Virus record (IMG/VR): IMGVR_UViG_3300049893_000779
Coordinates: 1 to 23,069 of that record
Strand: one strand, 5' to 3'
From: a virus
Length of the DNA: 23,069 nt
Positions 5,670 to 20,948 of this stretch are shown piece after piece. Position numbers and translations under genes: made by a program. Within the stretch, counting starts at the first letter, position 1, and every line of letters starts with the position of its first letter. Below the pieces are notes generated by a model. That model had not been told where the DNA came from. It made no database searches and was given only the letters and a program-made list of their open reading frames with translations.

Positions 5670-6641
5670 ATGTCAACCAGCACTAGTTCAACTGGTTTTG
5701 CAACAATGTCCTCTACCTTGTTCAACAAGGTAGCTCAGGACCGTCTGACGAAGAATTTCGTGTTTTACCGCTTTGCGGATAAGAAGCGCCTGCCCAAGAA
5801 TTCGGGCCAGGTGATGCAGTTCAACCGTTATGTGACCGTGGCTGGCACCACGGCCACGATTGCGGAAGGGACGCTTACGGCTGGTGAAGTGAACATCTCG
5901 GCCGACACCGCCACCCTGACGTTTTCGAGCTATGGGCAGTTCACCACGATCACGCAGACGCTTACCGACACCAACAGGACGACCGTGATTGAGGAAGCCA
6001 CGGAAGTTCTCGCTGATGGCGCTAGCGACACGGTGGACCTGCTTTGCATGTACAACTATGCGGGGAACGCTACCCTCCGCGTGGCTAACGGCAAAACCAC
6101 GGGGACCATTACCAACGGCGACAAGCTGACTGGTGACGAGCTTCGTGCGATTGTCCGCGACATGCAGCTTGCTAACGTCCGTCCGTTTGACGAGGGTGGT
6201 AACTATGTTGGCATCTACTCGCCTGCGCAGACTTATGACCTGCAGGGCGATACGAGCGCTAATACCTCCTGGACCGAAGTGCATAAATATACCGACAAGC
6301 CCGTAACAAATATGTTCGGGATGGAACTCGGTGCGCTTTGGGGCGTCCGTCTGATCCGCAGCAACAACGTCCTGACTGCCAGCGTTACCTCGTCTGTCAC
6401 TAACAGCGCCTACCAGGGCTATGTGATCGGCAAGCATGCGCAGGCGGCTGTGTCGCTTACCGAGAATCCGATTGAAATGATCGTGAAGCTTCCGGGCAGC
6501 GGTGGAACCTATGACCCCTACAACAACATCTGCACGGTTGCCTACAAGCTCCCGTACTTTGGTGTGAAGTGGCTTGGGTTCGGCACGGACACCGGAAACG
6601 CGAAACGCGCATACAGGAACATCACCTGCGTGAGTGCGTAA
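5670..6641 (+). CDS. Major capsid protein, N4 gp56 family
   Basis: This 323-residue protein forms the icosahedral shell (HK97-like fold). The N-terminal half fits the N4 gp56 family: a helix LFNKVAQDRLTKNFVFYRFA, then ADKKRLPKNSGQVMQFNRY (35-54), a TIAEGTLTAGE loop, a YGQFTTITQTLTDTNR strand, and a helix VIEEATEVLADGASDTVDLL. The remainder has the expected beta-rich P-domain and A-domain character (YVGIYSPAQTYDLQ and the ending LGFGTDTGNAKRAYRNI). Codon use is clearly more G/C-ending and regular than in neighbouring genes, as expected for the most highly expressed virion gene, and this creates a long spurious reverse frame. A perfect SD, AAGGAG, lies within a hairpin. Confidence 0.9.
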   Translation: MSTSTSSTGFATMSSTLFNKVAQDRLTKNFVFYRFADKKRLPKNSGQVMQFNRYVTVAGTTATIAEGTLTAGEVNISADTATLTFSSYGQFTTITQTLTDTNRTTVIEEATEVLADGASDTVDLLCMYNYAGNATLRVANGKTTGTITNGDKLTGDELRAIVRDMQLANVRPFDEGGNYVGIYSPAQTYDLQGDTSANTSWTEVHKYTDKPVTNMFGMELGALWGVRLIRSNNVLTASVTSSVTNSAYQGYVIGKHAQAAVSLTENPIEMIVKLPGSGGTYDPYNNICTVAYKLPYFGVKWLGFGTDTGNAKRAYRNITCVSA

Positions 6642-6856: not shown

Positions 6857-7336
6857 GTGAACGGCAAGGAGTTTGTAGCCAAGCTCAAGAAATTGAATCC
6901 AAGGATTAAGTTTTTTGAGGGTCGGGGCCATATTGCGGGGTTGTATTTGTATATGCCAAAACACCCTATGGCTAATCCCGAGACCGGCTTGAAGCACCTT
7001 GGCGGTATGCCTTCCCCCCGTTTTTTTGGCAGGCTTCCAAAGGAAGCGTTTTGGGACGATGCTCTTGGAGGGTTTAACAAGGGCTGGACATCGGTTGTAA
7101 GGGAGCTTTGTAACTGGCGGATTGGTGGAAGGCCAGTTATTTACAGAAGCCAAGCCCTTAAGGAGTTTGGAAACTTCATGTCATTCAGACCCATGCCGAA
7201 GCCTATCAAAAAAATGTGGGCGGGTAAGGAAAGGCTTAAGCAGAAATATCAATTACACAATGAAAGTGACAGGGCAAAGGTCGAGGCGGAAGTAAGCCGC
7301 ACAACGGATATGGGAATGAAATTGAGGGCTGCATGA
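6857..7336 (+). CDS. Hypothetical basic protein
   Basis: A 159-residue frame starting at GTG 6857 behind an extended purine SD (AAAGGGGGAAGG). No ATG lies near the start. The protein is basic, with aromatic and Pro-rich segments (GHIAGLYLYMPKHP near 24-37, GGMPSPRFFGRLP near 49-61) and a charged C-terminal helix. I recognise no domain. Its stop overlaps the HAD gene start (ATGA), so it is translationally linked to the HAD and glycosyltransferase genes. It could be an accessory gene or a small head/tail factor. Confidence 0.7.
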   Translation: MNGKEFVAKLKKLNPRIKFFEGRGHIAGLYLYMPKHPMANPETGLKHLGGMPSPRFFGRLPKEAFWDDALGGFNKGWTSVVRELCNWRIGGRPVIYRSQALKEFGNFMSFRPMPKPIKKMWAGKERLKQKYQLHNESDRAKVEAEVSRTTDMGMKLRAA

Positions 7337-7644
7337 CAGGGTGGATAGGCGTTGACCTTGACGGAACCTTAGCCCATTACGATGGATGGAACGGCGGCAA
7401 GATAGGCCAGCCAATTCCCAAAATGCTTTCAAGGGTAAGTGGTTGGATTGCAGAAGGGAAGCTGGTGAAGATTTTCACGGCCAGGGCCTGCAATGAAGAT
7501 CAGATTCCTTTGGTGAAAGATTGGCTTGAAAGCATTGGTCTTCCTCGCTTGGAAGTGACCAACGTCAAAGACTTCAACATGATTGAGCTTTGGGATGACA
7601 GGTGTATCCAAGTTATTCCCAACACAGGAGAAAAGGCCGCATGA
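7333..7644 (+). CDS. Small HAD-superfamily phosphatase-like protein
   Basis: A 103-residue cap-less HAD hydrolase. Motif I is DLDGT (8-12), with Asp8 the expected nucleophile and Asp10 the acid/base. Motif II is Thr49 in KIFTAR, motif III is probably Lys79, and motif IV is the acidic pair Asp88-Asp89 in ELWDDR, which binds magnesium. The family removes phosphate from small molecules such as sugars and nucleotides, or acts on nucleic acid ends. The substrate cannot be read from sequence. The gene overlaps its upstream neighbour and the following glycosyltransferase by ATGA junctions, so the enzymes are probably made together, possibly for phosphosugar handling. Confidence 0.85.
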   Translation: MTGWIGVDLDGTLAHYDGWNGGKIGQPIPKMLSRVSGWIAEGKLVKIFTARACNEDQIPLVKDWLESIGLPRLEVTNVKDFNMIELWDDRCIQVIPNTGEKAA

Positions 7645-8924
7645 AAGCCTTTGCGTATCACTACGGGGCATCGGGAGTGGCTTGGTATCGTGTATGGCAA
7701 GCCGTTAAGTATCTCCAAAAGCGTGGTATGGACATCAAGCGCTTGTGCAACGAATCAGACAGGGTGCATATCCCCGATTCAGAGGGGATAAGTAACTATC
7801 CCGGCGTAACGAATCACAAGGATATTGCGGAAAAGCATGATCTGATTTTCAGTCAATTTCAGAACACGCGCAAAAATGCGTTCAGGCTGGTAGATCAAAG
7901 CACAATTTGCCCCGTAGTGATTGACATTGATGATGATATTTTCAGTTTACATGGGTCAAATCCGAATGCTGAGGCATGGAAGCCCATGCCGGACGAATTT
8001 GAGGCACTTGATCCAGGTGAGGAAGACAGCCCACGCATTAAAGACCTTGTGGCTAGGGGTATCGGCTCCGTCTGTGAGCATGAGGGAAAGCCCTATTTCG
8101 TGATTCCGGGAGAGGATAAGCGGGAAAATGTGCTTCTTTCCATGAAGCACGTTCAAGCGGTAACGGTTTCAACGGAGCCATTAAGGAAACTCTATTCAAG
8201 GGTTAATCCGAACTGCCATGTTATTCCAAACGGGGTGGATTTTGACCTGTGGAAGCCGCAATATAACGAAACAAAGCAGTTTCGGATTGGTTTGTTTGGC
8301 TCAAACACGCATTATTTGGACTGGAAAGAGGCCAAGGACGGAATAAAGCAGTTTTTGGCTGAATTTCCTGATGCCATCTTGGTTACAAATGCCTCATTGA
8401 CACTTTTGGACGGGAAACAGGGTGAAAGATTTGAAAAGGCCAAATCAATTCCTAGATTCCCGGATTATTTTGAGGATTTATTCAAAACTGGACGCATGGA
8501 GCTTCATAAGCCTGCGGAAGTGGAGAAATACCCTGCTTGGCTGGCCGATAAAAAGGTAGATGTTATCTTGGCTCCCCTTGCCGATTTGAAATTTAACGAG
8601 AGTAAATCTAATATTAAGTATCTCGAAGCGGGAGCCTTGAAGGTTCCTACCATTTGCTCGGACATGACGCCTTACAACGGCGATATTGAGCATGGAAGGA
8701 ACGGGTTACTCGCTAAGAAGCCGATTGATTGGTATAGATACCTGAAGATGATGTATCAGGACAAATCGGCAAGACGGGCGATGGGTAACAGGGCATGGAT
8801 GGATGTTAAAAACCGCTACGACATGGCGTTGATAGCGGAAAAATATGAAACGCTGTTTCGCAGTTTGACAAGGGGGAAAGCAAATGAAGAAGTTTCTGAC
8901 AATCGCGTTGCTGTGGGCGTCTAG
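7641..8924 (+). CDS. GT-B fold glycosyltransferase (GT4-like C-terminal domain)
   Basis: The start is ATG 7641, overlapping the HAD stop (ATGA) and preceded by AGGAG. An in-frame upstream ATG at 7602 lies deep in the HAD gene and is unlikely. The 427-residue product has a GT-B outline: an N-terminal domain with VVIDIDDDIFSL near 99-110, a linker ending CHVIPNGVDFDLW, and a nucleotide-sugar-binding C-terminal domain with ESKSNIKYLEAGALKVPTIC followed by DMTPYNGDIEHGRNGLL. That last block is the donor-binding Glu region of GT4-type enzymes. Phage enzymes like this modify virion proteins, phage DNA or host surface glycans. Its place in the morphogenesis cluster favours a virion or host-surface target, but this is inference. 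Confidence 0.85.
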   Translation: MKAFAYHYGASGVAWYRVWQAVKYLQKRGMDIKRLCNESDRVHIPDSEGISNYPGVTNHKDIAEKHDLIFSQFQNTRKNAFRLVDQSTICPVVIDIDDDIFSLHGSNPNAEAWKPMPDEFEALDPGEEDSPRIKDLVARGIGSVCEHEGKPYFVIPGEDKRENVLLSMKHVQAVTVSTEPLRKLYSRVNPNCHVIPNGVDFDLWKPQYNETKQFRIGLFGSNTHYLDWKEAKDGIKQFLAEFPDAILVTNASLTLLDGKQGERFEKAKSIPRFPDYFEDLFKTGRMELHKPAEVEKYPAWLADKKVDVILAPLADLKFNESKSNIKYLEAGALKVPTICSDMTPYNGDIEHGRNGLLAKKPIDWYRYLKMMYQDKSARRAMGNRAWMDVKNRYDMALIAEKYETLFRSLTRGKANEEVSDNRVAVGV

Positions 8925-8937
8925 CCTCCAGTCATAG
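8884..8937 (+). CDS. 17-codon signal-peptide ORF ended by an in-frame amber codon
   Basis: ATG 8884 overlaps the end of the glycosyltransferase gene and follows a very strong SD (AAGGGGGAAAG, about 8870-8880). It encodes MKKFLTIALLWASSLQS and then TAG (8935-8937). The peptide has the form of a Sec signal: Lys-Lys, a hydrophobic core, then small polar residues. The frame is identical to that of the following gene, with no other stop between the TAG and its ATG at 8962. This looks like the missing front end of that gene, separated by one amber codon. It could be read through, re-initiated from, or be a recent mutation. Confidence 0.55.
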   Translation: MKKFLTIALLWASSLQS

Positions 8938-8966
8938 TCAACGCAGAATCTTGCGTTGACTATGAC
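8931..8966 (+). promoter_or_regulatory. Perfect 15-bp hairpin holding an amber stop and a start codon
   Basis: GTCATAGTCAACGCA (8931-8945) and TGCGTTGACTATGAC (8952-8966) are perfect inverted copies around GAATCT. The 5' arm contains the TAG that ends the signal-peptide ORF. The 3' arm contains the ATG (8962-8964) of the next gene. No T-run follows, so it is not an ordinary terminator. It could influence stop readthrough or re-initiation, be a protein-binding site, or be a product of template-switch mutation. Confidence 0.75.
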
Positions 8967-9477
8967 GGCGCAGGACGATCAAAGCGTAGCTAAAACAGCT
9001 TCATTTTTGTATGGGCAGGATCAGAGCCTGACCTATACGGCAACCGATAGGCGGCTTGCGGTAGATAATCGAGGATATCTTTATTTTATTGCTGGCGGAG
9101 GTGGTGCAACTAGTGCTGTAACGGTTACTTCCCTTCCCGTTTATGTTTCTGTGTCAAATCCAGCGTATACGGTGCTTTCATCGACAGCTACAAGCCGCAA
9201 CATCACAAGCGAAGCCGGAACTAGCGCCAATTATGATCTGGCGATAAGCAATAATTATGGTGGTTCAGCTATTCGGTATGCTATTACCTTTAGCTCCGGC
9301 GCACCCAGCGATCTTTCAACTCGCGGGGCATACTTAGCAGCCACAAGCACAGTGCAAATTGATGGCACTTGGGGGCCTGGAGCGCATCTTCATATGTATT
9401 CGGTGGGCACTGCACCTACAGGGAATGATGTGTCTGTTTACTACCGCAGGCGCGGAAACAACACTGCAAATCCGTAG
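8962..9477 (+). CDS. Beta-rich putative virion surface or fibre protein
   Basis: 171 residues from ATG 8962, with an in-frame TTG at 8956 as alternative. Neither has a visible SD, whereas the in-frame signal-peptide ORF at 8884 has an excellent one, so the natural product may begin at 8884 with amber readthrough at 8935. The protein is Thr/Ser/Gly/Ala-rich and predicted beta-structured (ATDRRLAVDNRGYLYFIAGG near 26-45). The C-terminal block contains VQIDGTWGPGAHLHMYSVG and ends in YYRRRGNN. Such composition is typical of phage decoration or fibre-tip domains. No enzyme motif is seen. Its neighbour downstream is another probable surface protein. Confidence 0.7.
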   Translation: MTAQDDQSVAKTASFLYGQDQSLTYTATDRRLAVDNRGYLYFIAGGGGATSAVTVTSLPVYVSVSNPAYTVLSSTATSRNITSEAGTSANYDLAISNNYGGSAIRYAITFSSGAPSDLSTRGAYLAATSTVQIDGTWGPGAHLHMYSVGTAPTGNDVSVYYRRRGNNTANP

Positions 9478-9485
9478 AGGATAAC

Positions 9486-10487
9486 GTGAAATTTTTTGCA
9501 ACTCTGTTTTTCATTGTGGCAAGCCTAAGAGGGGCAAGTGACCCTTCTTACAGCTTTGTTTCGTCATTGATTCAATTTAGCGGAACCAATGGACAGACAA
9601 CCGGGAATGATGACAAGACCGGAACTACATTGACTTTCAACAATGGGGCGGCACTTTCTACGACATCGCCACCTACAGGAATGCCATCCTCCTTGGCGAC
9701 AGACGGTACTAATGACTTTGTGAATTTCACCGATGCAGGCCAATGGGATTTGGGTTCGGGCGATTTCACTATTGAATGGTGGTTTAAGAATACGGCGATA
9801 GCCGCGAATCAAGCCTTTCTTGGCAATTACCTTGGATCAGATACACACAAGGGTTACATCATAGATATGTCCACCACCAACTTGAGGGTGGTGAGGGATA
9901 ACGATACCGTGAATCAGGTTGCGCTTACCCTTACGTCTGGTTCTTGGTATGCGGGGTGCTTGTGCAAAACGGGAACATCGGCTCAGTTCTATATTAACGG
10001 GGCCACGCAGGGGGCGTCTTTCTCTGATTCTAAGACATACACCCCCGACACAAATGTTTCTCCAAGTATTGGAAGGGCATCGGCGGCTGATGGTGAATAC
10101 TGGAACGGGAATATTGGCCCAATTCGTATCACGAAGGGCCTGTGCCGTTATTCTGGAGCATATACGGTTCCTTCCCTCCCGTTGCCCACAAGTGGCGAGG
10201 ATGTGCTTTCGCCATACTTAAAGAATAGTAATAGGCTCAATCTTACTCCCCCTCGTCTTTTCATGTGGCTGTTTGACGCCTTCACCACAAAGGGCTATGC
10301 CATGTCATCGGATAATAGGCTGGAGAGCCAGAGAAACCAGGCTTTGATGAAGACGGAGCTTGACCTCTACACCCGTAATAAATACATATCTGACGTAACG
10401 GCAAAGCGGATTGTTACCCCCACGCCCACGCCTACGCCTGCACCACGGGCAACCACGCCCACAAAAACACCTACTCCGGGCAAATAA
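9486..10487 (+). CDS. Signal-peptide-bearing LamG (concanavalin A-like) surface protein
   Basis: 333 residues from GTG 9486 (SD GAGGATA). Residues 1-17 form a Sec-type signal (MKFFATLFFIVASLRGA), with likely cleavage before SDPS. Residues about 28-230 fit the laminin-G/concanavalin A-like jelly roll used for glycan binding. Markers are DGTNDFVNF, WDLGSGDFTIEWWFK, GSWYAGCLC, AQFYINGATQG and WNGNIGPIRITKGLCRY. After a helical stretch the last 26 residues are a Pro-Thr linker (PTPTPTPAP then TTPTKTPTPGK). LamG domains occur in phage fibres, but a secretory signal is unusual for a cytoplasmically assembled virion. It may be a host-adhesion or host-surface protein carried by the phage. Confidence 0.75.
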   Translation: MKFFATLFFIVASLRGASDPSYSFVSSLIQFSGTNGQTTGNDDKTGTTLTFNNGAALSTTSPPTGMPSSLATDGTNDFVNFTDAGQWDLGSGDFTIEWWFKNTAIAANQAFLGNYLGSDTHKGYIIDMSTTNLRVVRDNDTVNQVALTLTSGSWYAGCLCKTGTSAQFYINGATQGASFSDSKTYTPDTNVSPSIGRASAADGEYWNGNIGPIRITKGLCRYSGAYTVPSLPLPTSGEDVLSPYLKNSNRLNLTPPRLFMWLFDAFTTKGYAMSSDNRLESQRNQALMKTELDLYTRNKYISDVTAKRIVTPTPTPTPAPRATTPTKTPTPGK

Positions 10488-11215
10488 TGGCAAACTTAGC
10501 AGGACAAAGGACGGGGGCGCAAATTGTAAGCGCTGTTGATTCGATCTTGTTTAACAAGACGAGTGGCAGCGCAAACACATACCCCACAAGCACCACAATA
10601 CTTGAGTTAATCAATAGGTACTACAAAACCTTCGTGGACAAGTACCAGTTTTTGTGGGCGATGAAGTCCACCACGGCATCCACTTCAAGCGGTGTTACGC
10701 TTCTGACAATGCCTGATGATTGCATACAGGTTTACCAGATGCAGATCAGGGCAAATGGGCGATATCTTCAATTCCTTCCCCGCAAGACGTTTGAGCGCAT
10801 GTTTCCGGCGGGATGGACAAGTGTGGGGAATAGTCAACCGATCTATTACGTTGAAGCGGCTCCGGCCTCTAATAACGCAATTCAATTTGACTTATTCCCC
10901 ACACCTGATGCGACATACACGATCAATTATGACTATCGTGCGAGGTTTACGCCTCTTGTCGGATCAACTGAAGTATCGGTCATCCCGCCTGAATACGATA
11001 TGTATTTGATCTATGGCCCTGCTATGGAGGGGCTAATCATGTTGGGTGATCCACGGGCAAAGCAGTATGCGGAATTGCTCGATGAGACTGATAAACGTGC
11101 TTGGATGGCGAATGAACGGCTGACGGATTATCAAAACTCATTCTCGGAAGCACCTACGGCCTATGAATACGGATTGAGGCCTGGACAGGTGCTGCCTTAC
11201 TTGCCCAATGCGTAA
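10487..11215 (+). CDS. Head-tail adaptor protein (SU10 adaptor type)
   Basis: 242 residues, with the start in a TAATG overlap with the LamG gene. The N-terminal helical part (TGAQIVSAVDSILFN, ILELINRYYKTFVDKYQFLWAM) is followed by a beta-rich middle that begins SGVTLLTMPDDCIQVYQMQI and GRYLQFLPRKTFERMFP. A C-terminal helix bundle follows, with the IPPEYDMYLIYGPAMEGLIML and KQYAELLDETDKRAWMANER regions. This matches the phage adaptor family that binds under the portal ring and carries the short tail in podoviruses, functionally like T7 gp11 or P22 gp4. Its place directly before the nozzle-like protein supports this. Confidence 0.8.
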   Translation: MANLAGQRTGAQIVSAVDSILFNKTSGSANTYPTSTTILELINRYYKTFVDKYQFLWAMKSTTASTSSGVTLLTMPDDCIQVYQMQIRANGRYLQFLPRKTFERMFPAGWTSVGNSQPIYYVEAAPASNNAIQFDLFPTPDATYTINYDYRARFTPLVGSTEVSVIPPEYDMYLIYGPAMEGLIMLGDPRAKQYAELLDETDKRAWMANERLTDYQNSFSEAPTAYEYGLRPGQVLPYLPNA

Positions 11216-17551: not shown

Positions 17552-17580
17552 AAAAAAAATAGGCCATAGAAAGTGGCCTA
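17552..17580 (-). terminator. Intrinsic terminator acting on leftward transcripts
   Basis: Read on the minus strand, TAGGCCA and TGGCCTA (17560-17566 and 17574-17580) form a 7-bp stem with a 7-nt loop, followed by eight T (17552-17559). On the plus strand no T-run follows, so it should stop only leftward transcription. It lies just after the last internal virion gene. It would stop antisense transcription reaching the virion genes, for example from the leftward operon at the right end. Confidence 0.6.
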
Positions 17581-17943: not shown

Positions 17944-18519
17944 ATGAAAAAAATGCTCATGGTTCTTTCTTTGGCGCTGGCTTCAATTGTTGAAGCTGGC
18001 CCTAGGTTCTCGTATGTGTTTGTTCAGCCCCGCCAGTTTTTGCAGGGTGATGGCTTCACGGCTCCCCTTTCGGCGGCATCTAATAGCGCAATCTATTGGT
18101 CTATGTTCAAGAGCAATACGGTTGGGTCTATGGCTGCTGCCACGGGCGTATCAATGACAGCGCAGTTTAAGGTTCCCACCAATTTCAAGCCTGGTTATCC
18201 GCTTACCATTGGTTTCACTTGCGCTTATTCTGGCGTGACCAATTCGGCGGTTCTGTCCGGGACGGCTAAGGTTCAGGTTGCTGGTTATTCCGATTATGGA
18301 TTTATCACTTCCACGGCCCTTACTGTTTCGTCACAGATTCAGATCACCAACGCTAATACCTATGGTGGCCCCACGCAGTATGAGCTGGTTGACATTCCCA
18401 ATGTCTATCCCGGCTCCATTATTGATGTGTATCTTGAGCGTATTGCGGGAACAAACTCGGTTCTGCATCTTTACGAGGTGTGGGCCAAGTTTGAGCCGTC
18501 TTCTGGCTGGCTCTGGTAA
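17944..18519 (+). CDS. Secreted beta-rich protein with Sec signal peptide
   Basis: The start is ATG 17944, 8 nt after GGAGG (17931-17935); an in-frame ATG at 17929 precedes that site and is unlikely. Residues 1-18 are a signal peptide (MKKMLMVLSLALASIVEA) with an excellent cleavage site before GPRF. The mature part, about 170 residues, is Thr/Ser/Gly/aromatic-rich and predicted all-beta. The FKPGYPLTIGFTCAYSGV and AVLSGTAKVQVAGY stretches and a C-terminal VLHLYEVWAKFEPSSGW are typical of jelly-roll modules. It is unrecognised by family. It would be exported to the periplasm or cell surface and not built into the virion in the cytoplasm, unless the signal is ignored. Confidence 0.7.
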   Translation: MKKMLMVLSLALASIVEAGPRFSYVFVQPRQFLQGDGFTAPLSAASNSAIYWSMFKSNTVGSMAAATGVSMTAQFKVPTNFKPGYPLTIGFTCAYSGVTNSAVLSGTAKVQVAGYSDYGFITSTALTVSSQIQITNANTYGGPTQYELVDIPNVYPGSIIDVYLERIAGTNSVLHLYEVWAKFEPSSGWLW

Positions 18520-18526
18520 GTCAACT

Positions 18527-18554
18527 AAAGCCGTTAAGGAAACTTAACGGCTTT
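18527..18554 (+). terminator. 12-bp hairpin with GAAA tetraloop after the secreted-protein gene
   Basis: AAAGCCGTTAAG (18527-18538) and CTTAACGGCTTT (18543-18554) pair perfectly around GAAA. The arms begin with AAA and end with TTT, the form of a short bidirectional terminator, but no longer T-run follows. It separates the secreted protein from the lysis genes and could partly terminate transcription or protect the 3' end of the upstream mRNA. Confidence 0.6.
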
Positions 18555-18576
18555 GATGGACTTACAAGGGGGAGAA

Positions 18577-19169: not shown

Positions 19170-19380
19170 GGATGTTTTAATTCGCTTCATTCAATTCCTT
19201 GAAACGACATTTGCGCGGATTAACTCAAAGCGTTTGATGACGCTTTATGCCTATTTGCTTTTTCTGCTTTACAGCAAGGAAATGACGGATAGTGCGGTTT
19301 TGTATGGAACGCTTGTTACCATACTTGTTCTCTTGCTTTTCATGATGCGGGGTAAAGATTCGGTGGTAGAGGCTAAGTAA
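19162..19380 (+). CDS. Putative holin
   Basis: 72 residues from ATG 19162 (SD GGAGG). It has two hydrophobic segments, LMTLYAYLLFLLY near 25-37 and a stronger one, AVLYGTLVTILVLLLFMM, near 45-62, with charged N- and C-termini. Size, topology and position directly after the endolysin fit a two-span holin that opens the inner membrane. Holins share little sequence, so this is a call from context. The stop overlaps the next start (TAATG). Confidence 0.65.
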   Translation: MDKDVLIRFIQFLETTFARINSKRLMTLYAYLLFLLYSKEMTDSAVLYGTLVTILVLLLFMMRGKDSVVEAK

Positions 19381-20948
19381 TGGCCCCCAAGGATAAGGAT
19401 TACAGCGCGGGTAATGCCCGTATCATGAATGATGATACGGGATTCGCTGTTAATGCAGATAATCCTTTTCCGGTAACTATTGGAGCGGGGCCGTCCAAAA
19501 GCGCCTTTGGCGAGATAGTCGCCATTCCTAATACCCCCTTGATGCAGGGTGACTTTGTTTATGGGAACAATAATCAGCTTTTCAAGACAACACAGCAAGG
19601 AAGCGGAACGGTCACTAATGCAACGGGCATGGCTGTTATCGCTACTGGAGCAAATACTTCAAGCCTTGCCAACATAAGATCAGGGCGCGTTCTCAGATAC
19701 AAGCCTGGTCAGGGGGCTGTGGCTCGGTTTGCCTGCTTGTTCAGCGCGGGGGTTACGGGGAACACTCAAAGCGTAGGCGTGGGGACGGCTGAATCGGGTG
19801 TTTTCTTTGGTCACATTGACAACAACGGGTTTTCCATCATCCATAACCAGACAAACACCCGCGAAATCCAGAGTGTCCAAATCACCACCAAGTCAAGTAA
19901 CAGCCAGAACGCTACCGTTACGCTTGGCGGTGTGGCTTATACGGTTCCCGTGACAAACGGGGCATCGGTGCAGGCTACGGCTTGGGAGATTGCCAGCTTT
20001 GATTACAATTCTTCATTTCCGGGCTGGATTGCAACTGCCGTTGGGGACACCATATATTTTGTGTGCTCTGCGGCAGGGAACCAGACGGGAAGTTTCAGCG
20101 TTTCTTTCCCAACGTCTGGTGTGGCTGGTGCTTTCACCGAAGTCGTAGCGGGTGCGCTTGGAACCACCAATGTAATTTTACAGACGGCTTGGAATGTTGA
20201 CCGGATGAATGGGGCGGGGGGCGCGTTTAACCCATCCGGCCTCACGCTCGACCCGACAAAAATCAACGTTTATGAAATCAAGATGCAGTATCTTGGTGGC
20301 GGTGCTGTCGAGTGCTACATTGAAAACAGCGACACCGGGGCTTTTGTTCTGGTGCATCGGATTAAATACGCTAATCTGAACACGATTCCTAGCTTGAAGA
20401 ATCCCGGTATGCCGTTCCAAGCGTCAAGCCGAAACACTACAAATAATACAGCCGTGACCATCAAGGTGTCATCGTGCGCCTTGTTCCTTCAAGGGCCTCG
20501 CGGATTTCTCGGAATCAAAAACTCAAAAGGTGCTACGCTTGCCGGAGTTACCACGGCAATCACGCCCATTCTCAGTATCAGACCCGGATTGCTTTTCAAC
20601 AACAAGGTGTCAACGTGCGAGATTGTTCCGTATCTTCTCAGCGTGTCAAACATTGGAACCAAGGGCGCACAGATATACGTCTATAAAAACGCCACGTTAA
20701 ATAACACGGCTAACTTTTCAAAGCTGGATGCCACAACGTCCGTTGCAGAAACGGACACCACGGCAACAAGCCTCACGGGGGGGCGGGTTATTGCCACCTT
20801 GGGCATCGGAAACGGAAACAGGGAATCCATTAACCTTAAAGACTTTGAAACCTATGTTGAAACAAATGATATCTTGACCATAGCCGCCGCTTCGGTTACA
20901 GCCACAACCGATATCACCGTGGGTCTGTCATGGGAGGAAGAACAATGA
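19380..20948 (+). CDS. Putative tail fibre or virion structural protein
   Basis: 522 residues, all-beta and Thr/Asn/Gly/Ala-rich, with no signal peptide. The segment SAFGEIVAIPNTPLMQGDFV followed by YGNNNQLF, then VTNATGMAVIATGA near 80-93, RSGRVLRYKPGQGAVARF, and GVGTAESGVFFGHIDNNGFS resembles repeat-bearing structural proteins seen in environmental phages. I cannot name the family. The C-terminal part (ISLRPG-like strands and EIVPYLLSVSNIG) suggests a receptor-binding or fibre-shaft domain. Its location after the lysis genes is unusual for a tail gene but common for late-added fibres. The stop overlaps the next ATG. Confidence 0.55.
   Translation: MAPKDKDYSAGNARIMNDDTGFAVNADNPFPVTIGAGPSKSAFGEIVAIPNTPLMQGDFVYGNNNQLFKTTQQGSGTVTNATGMAVIATGANTSSLANIRSGRVLRYKPGQGAVARFACLFSAGVTGNTQSVGVGTAESGVFFGHIDNNGFSIIHNQTNTREIQSVQITTKSSNSQNATVTLGGVAYTVPVTNGASVQATAWEIASFDYNSSFPGWIATAVGDTIYFVCSAAGNQTGSFSVSFPTSGVAGAFTEVVAGALGTTNVILQTAWNVDRMNGAGGAFNPSGLTLDPTKINVYEIKMQYLGGGAVECYIENSDTGAFVLVHRIKYANLNTIPSLKNPGMPFQASSRNTTNNTAVTIKVSSCALFLQGPRGFLGIKNSKGATLAGVTTAITPILSIRPGLLFNNKVSTCEIVPYLLSVSNIGTKGAQIYVYKNATLNNTANFSKLDATTSVAETDTTATSLTGGRVIATLGIGNGNRESINLKDFETYVETNDILTIAAASVTATTDITVGLSWEEEQ

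Follow-up and report, generated by a model that had tools for sequence, protein, structure and literature searches.

Why is a signal-peptide-like leader with a strong ribosome-binding site closed by an amber codon when the same frame then runs on, without another stop, through a 171-residue body? The locus in question occupies positions 8884–9477 (plus strand) of the uncultivated virus record IMGVR_UViG_3300049893_000779. We analyzed 23,069 bases of this record, hereafter the window, which is a genome fragment and an assembly consensus. By gene content it is podovirus-like, carrying a terminase, an SU10-type portal, a major head protein, an SU10-type adaptor, and virion proteins, and we regard it as belonging to an unclassified bacterial virus. 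The closest relatives that we found are distant: terminase identity is 31% over the full length (38–40% over C-terminal fragments only), and the major head protein is ~34% identical to its nearest relatives found. The product of the virion protein gene at 19380–20948 shares 37% identity with a protein of LR745208, an uncultured phage of 485 kb, and ~30% with Synechococcus phage proteins, matches that hint at an aquatic phage.

A leader and a body in one frame

Translated as a whole, 8884–9477 reads MKKFLTIALLWASSLQS*STQNLALTMTAQDD...NNTANP*, with a single internal TAG (8935–8937) and a final TAG (9475–9477). The leader ORF (8884–8937, plus strand) consists of 17 codons, MKKFLTIALLWASSLQS, closed by the internal TAG; it is Sec-like, where "signal-like" is for all leaders here a judgment made by reading the sequence. 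Upstream of its ATG lies a Shine-Dalgarno (SD)-like purine run, AAGGGGG (8873–8878, approximate limits, plus strand), with a duplex energy of −10.5 kcal/mol, compared with −0.8 kcal/mol at both ATG 8962 and TTG 8956; on this scale random sites average −3.8, with a 5th percentile of −8.9. The body ORF (8962–9477, plus strand, 171 residues) has an intact coding signature, a start that lacks an SD, and no homologue that we could find. A preliminary description had ranked the SD at ATG 8884 among the strongest in the window, had read a Sec-like leader ending at TAG 8935 with the frame open beyond it to 9477, and had seen no SD at the internal ATG 8962; duplex energies and translation bear out all of this. 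Its label for the body, "surface protein," is not established, as profile searches gave no family match and the fold model is meaningless, carrying no confidence (pLDDT 32).

Is TAG an ordinary stop codon in this virus? It terminates 7 of the 25 genes in the window, whereas under amber reassignment TAG should end no genes. No tRNA gene lies within the 23,069 bases, a fragment of the phage genome. Together these two results make general amber recoding unlikely, as had already been proposed from the sequence.

Were leader and body ever one gene? The log-likelihood ratio per codon for coding is 0.18 in the leader and 0.15 in the body (0.31 in the 8-codon bridge between them, which is too short to weigh), and is negative in both other frames of the whole gene; around the TAG, those two frames soon run into stops. 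An unrelated leader would nevertheless share the frame, and leave the eight codons from the TAG to ATG 8962 open, with a chance of ~0.24, so that frame continuity alone is weak evidence. What makes a single gene likelier is the signal-like leader with its strong SD, the SD-less start at 8962, and two similar neighbors: signal-like leaders also begin the window genes at 9486 (MKFFATLFFIVASLRGA) and 17944 (MKKMLMVLSLALASIVEA). The latter gene (17944–18519) is itself an orphan, for which a weak all-beta model (pLDDT 51) matched, with low confidence, beta folds of virion and carbohydrate-binding proteins. Codon usage in the body is normal, no second stop interrupts it, and no other lesion was seen there, so that any loss or decay would be recent.

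Searches of phages, plasmids, viral_contigs, and genome_contigs returned no body homologue, the pattern searches being for exact short peptides, by which relatives of moderate identity are easily missed. Searches with the body, major capsid protein (MCP), terminase, LamG, and leader DNA recovered distant phage relatives and not the gene itself, and no relationship between the body and sp2 was detectable. A 2.2-Mb scan of related contigs plus the window yielded 57 mechanically called cases of genes split by a stop behind a short, SD-led leader. Most resemble wrong-frame calls or ordinary gene junctions, and by inspection it is only in the window's case that a signal-like leader and a long hairpin occur together.

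Upstream of the locus lies a glycosyltransferase gene (7641–8924, plus strand; phrog_7162, E = 1.2e-31 over residues 161–409), the final 41 nt of which, ending in its stop TAG at 8922–8924, are shared with the leader ORF; the overlap falls in the tail after residue ~409, beyond the conserved domain. Just 5′ of this gene, a short ORF at 7333–7644 opens with MTGWIGVDLDGTLAHYDGW, which reads as a HAD-type phosphatase-like motif. Downstream are a LamG-domain gene with the signal-like N terminus given above (9486–10487, plus strand; PF13385, E = 2.1e-10) and the SU10-type adaptor gene (10487–11215, plus strand; PF24175, E = 8.5e-15). In L003, L117, and L149, three distant relatives, nothing separates the glycosyltransferase and adaptor genes, which abut or overlap; this indicates that the amber-containing gene and, as its second member, the LamG gene form a lineage-specific accessory insert (8884–10487); no repeats of note were found at its boundaries. 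Loss of a gene within such an insert would probably be tolerable.

A perfect hairpin around the stop codon

The amber codon sits in a perfect hairpin (8931–8966, plus strand; −24.4 kcal/mol) with 15-bp arms (8931–8945 and 8952–8966) and a 6-nt loop (8946–8951). All 15 pairs are Watson–Crick, with no G-U. Within the left arm, the TAG is 4 nt past the first base; ATG 8962 is in the right arm. This is the longest short-loop hairpin of the window, and its arm length is far beyond chance: perfect arms in 15 shuffled windows reached 10 bp at most. Across 2.18 Mb of related contigs, ten distinct hairpins have arms of at least 13 bp, half of them mechanically flagged directly after a stop codon. Two further features surround the stop. 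Identical codons flank it on both sides—TCA TAG TCA (8932–8940, plus strand), the layout of a stop-hop, expected by chance in 2.1%—and the codon CAG at 8929 recurs in frame as CAG 8971, just past the hairpin (~6% by chance).

Does the hairpin have known relatives? Within the IMG/VR set its core turned up in just two viral contigs, each time in an unrelated context, which argues against a widespread mobile element. Rfam gave nothing above threshold for it, its weak microRNA matches reflecting a generic resemblance between hairpins. An intrinsic terminator was considered and rejected: the stem is followed by GGCGCAGG, with no T run, and the site is absent from the list of terminators. We found no relative of the hairpin stretch, and hence no ancestral or sister repeat with which to compare it.

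Position relative to starts and stops might account for a hairpin here. It begins 7 nt 3′ of the glycosyltransferase stop (8924), the strongest folding of the window (−25.8 kcal/mol) starting 5 nt past that stop, and it spans +47 to +82 relative to ATG 8884. Folding of mRNA has been reported to show a transition peak 30–70 nt past start codons (PMC7063772). In the window, structure is elevated 30–50 nt after starts compared with synonymous shuffles (22 genes, amber gene excluded; t test, P = 0.0002), at an offset picked after the data had been seen; several relatives have a weaker post-start peak. Individual hairpins ~37–43 nt past starts, part of this window-wide peak, are found in the genes for the head protein (5713–5733), LamG (9526–9550), and g23 (19417–19441).

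Strong structure is also general in bacteria after the stops of well-separated genes, a position at which structures that govern re-initiation are found, and is depleted if the following start is close or overlaps (PMC7518266). In the window the mean z score of post-stop structure is about −1.0 for gaps of at least 25 nt (n = 8) and about 0 for close genes (n = 15), groups that are small and support arguments from position only. Strong post-stop structure follows the MCP, sp2, and g17 genes. Folding is strong from 6642, behind the major head protein stop, and at 17560–17580, behind that of g17, and a similarly strong hairpin with no T run (18513–18568) comes directly behind the stop codon of the gene at 17944. 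At our locus the gap from the glycosyltransferase stop is −41 to the start at 8884 and +37 to ATG 8962. Either trend, post-start or post-stop, could explain the site of the hairpin; neither accounts for the stop codon.

Weighing the explanations

Which account best fits these observations? On balance we lean toward a single gene in which a nonsense codon has recently interrupted the export leader; its product would be an accessory protein, either exported or associated with the virion. Among the possibilities, a broken gene start is likelier than a deliberate readthrough switch. Ribosomes that initiate at 8884 would terminate at the TAG after the 17 residues of the leader, and the body would then be made poorly or not at all, through weak re-initiation at 8962 and without a signal peptide. 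We infer that leader and body once formed a single gene and that a recent event abolished export. The perfection of the repeat leads us to guess at its origin: one template switch may have copied one arm onto the other, creating the stop and the perfect hairpin together. In a yeast coding gene, a template switch turned a repeat with 5-bp arms into a perfect 16-bp one (PMC8604942), and template switching also occurs in E. coli (PMC7202029). A fresh nonsense mutation was among the options of the preliminary description, and the evidence supports it as such. Several points count against an interrupted gene. We found no intact homologue showing the sense version; a deleterious stop should usually be rare in a contig that is an assembly consensus; frame continuity arises by chance in 24%; and a stop inside a perfect hairpin, within UCA UAG UCA, could have the look of a recoding site. 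If the interpretation is right, the locus is an instance of export-leader loss, at a hairpin, in an accessory phage gene, and it advises caution in calling small leader ORFs.

Re-initiation and stop-hopping are live but weaker than an interrupted gene. Under coupled re-initiation, which we consider rather unlikely, termination of the leader in the left arm would open the hairpin and free ATG 8962, as in an attenuator, to give a cytoplasmic (virion) body. The geometry suits this, with the stop in one arm and the next in-frame ATG 24 nt away in the other, and a terminating ribosome should cover the left arm; the hairpin also begins 7 nt past the glycosyltransferase stop, where structures controlling re-initiation are found (PMC7518266), and the shared frame is expected in 24% by chance. 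It is harder to reconcile with the lack of an SD at ATG 8962, with a signal-peptide-like leader similar to the N termini of two other genes, and with the depletion of post-stop structure before near or overlapping starts, to which the other genes of the window conform. Might the stop instead be recoded, by readthrough, by a UCA-UAG-UCA stop-hop, or by a gene-60-like bypass from CAG 8929 to CAG 8971, so that part of the product is full-length and exported? Judging from the size of its footprint, a ribosome whose A site is occupied by the TAG sits over the left arm, so that the hairpin cannot act from downstream to stimulate readthrough. Conventional programmed readthrough, another suggestion of the preliminary description, thus finds no support: the stop is within the stem, and no stem or other structure lies 3′ of it at readthrough distance. 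More favorable to recoding are the matched UCA codons directly flanking the stop and the in-frame CAG repeated just past the hairpin (2.1% and ~6% by chance, as above). Stop-hops of the same layout function in synthetic constructs, and in T4 gene 60 a stop sits beside the take-off codon, which is later taken up in a stem loop (PMC5009743). The passages of that review considered here cite no natural stop-hop, however, and the key part of the gene 60 nascent-peptide signal lies ~30 residues before the take-off site, so that 17 codons ahead of the stop are too few for a signal of that type. Recoding in any of these forms strikes us as quite improbable, and a natural phage stop-hop or short bypass at UCA-UAG-UCA that sets the dose of exported protein, the other ribosomes stopping after the leader, as very improbable. 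Were recoding real, the locus would be one of few natural examples of bypassing or stop-hopping beyond T4 gene 60 and mitochondria, and its site at a signal peptide would decide between exported protein and none.

Two further accounts place the cause outside the gene. Template switching can yield perfect short inverted repeats in vitro as well as in vivo, and an assembly or amplification artefact could produce such a repeat too; the contig, from an uncultivated virus record, would then be chimeric or a rare variant from which the phage population differs. Arms of 15 bp fit within single reads, however, so that the artefact would have to be present in most reads to enter a consensus, and no other lesion lies nearby; we hold this to be unlikely. 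An amber suppressor tRNA, supplied by the host or by the missing part of the phage, would restrict expression of the gene to that host. The fragmentary state of the window leaves room for it, but the window holds no tRNA and strong suppression would also extend the 7 of 25 genes that end in TAG, and we rate it the least probable of all. We allow a slim chance, slightly above that of a suppressor, for something that we have not thought of.

How does the locus compare with known systems? It shares with translational attenuators such as ermC (PMC5118997) a short leader ORF that ends in one arm of a hairpin while the downstream start lies in the other; it differs in that no SD is sequestered, the leader is signal-peptide-like, and the two ORFs share a frame. 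As in T4 gene 60 (PMC5009743), a UAG directly 3′ of a candidate take-off UCA (8932–8937) lies inside a stem, and the matched codons UCA-UAG-UCA recall the synthetic stop-hops of the same source; unlike gene 60, this locus has no room for a nascent-peptide stimulator. A stable hairpin 7 nt past the glycosyltransferase stop is reminiscent of ribosome termination structures, although these are depleted at an overlapping next gene (PMC7518266), and the leader ORF overlaps here. At +47 to +82 from ATG 8884, the hairpin is placed like the transition peak (PMC7063772), as in the other genes of the window, but it is far stronger, perfect, and contains a stop codon. The remaining comparison is with template-switch (quasipalindrome) mutations (PMC8604942, PMC7202029, and PMC8794818). 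Unlike those cases, the event here is deduced, not seen, and the change would also have brought in a stop codon; like them, the locus has, within coding sequence, a short inverted repeat whose arms match perfectly across a small spacer, for which yeast REG2, whose arms became 16 bp in one event, provides a precedent (PMC8604942).
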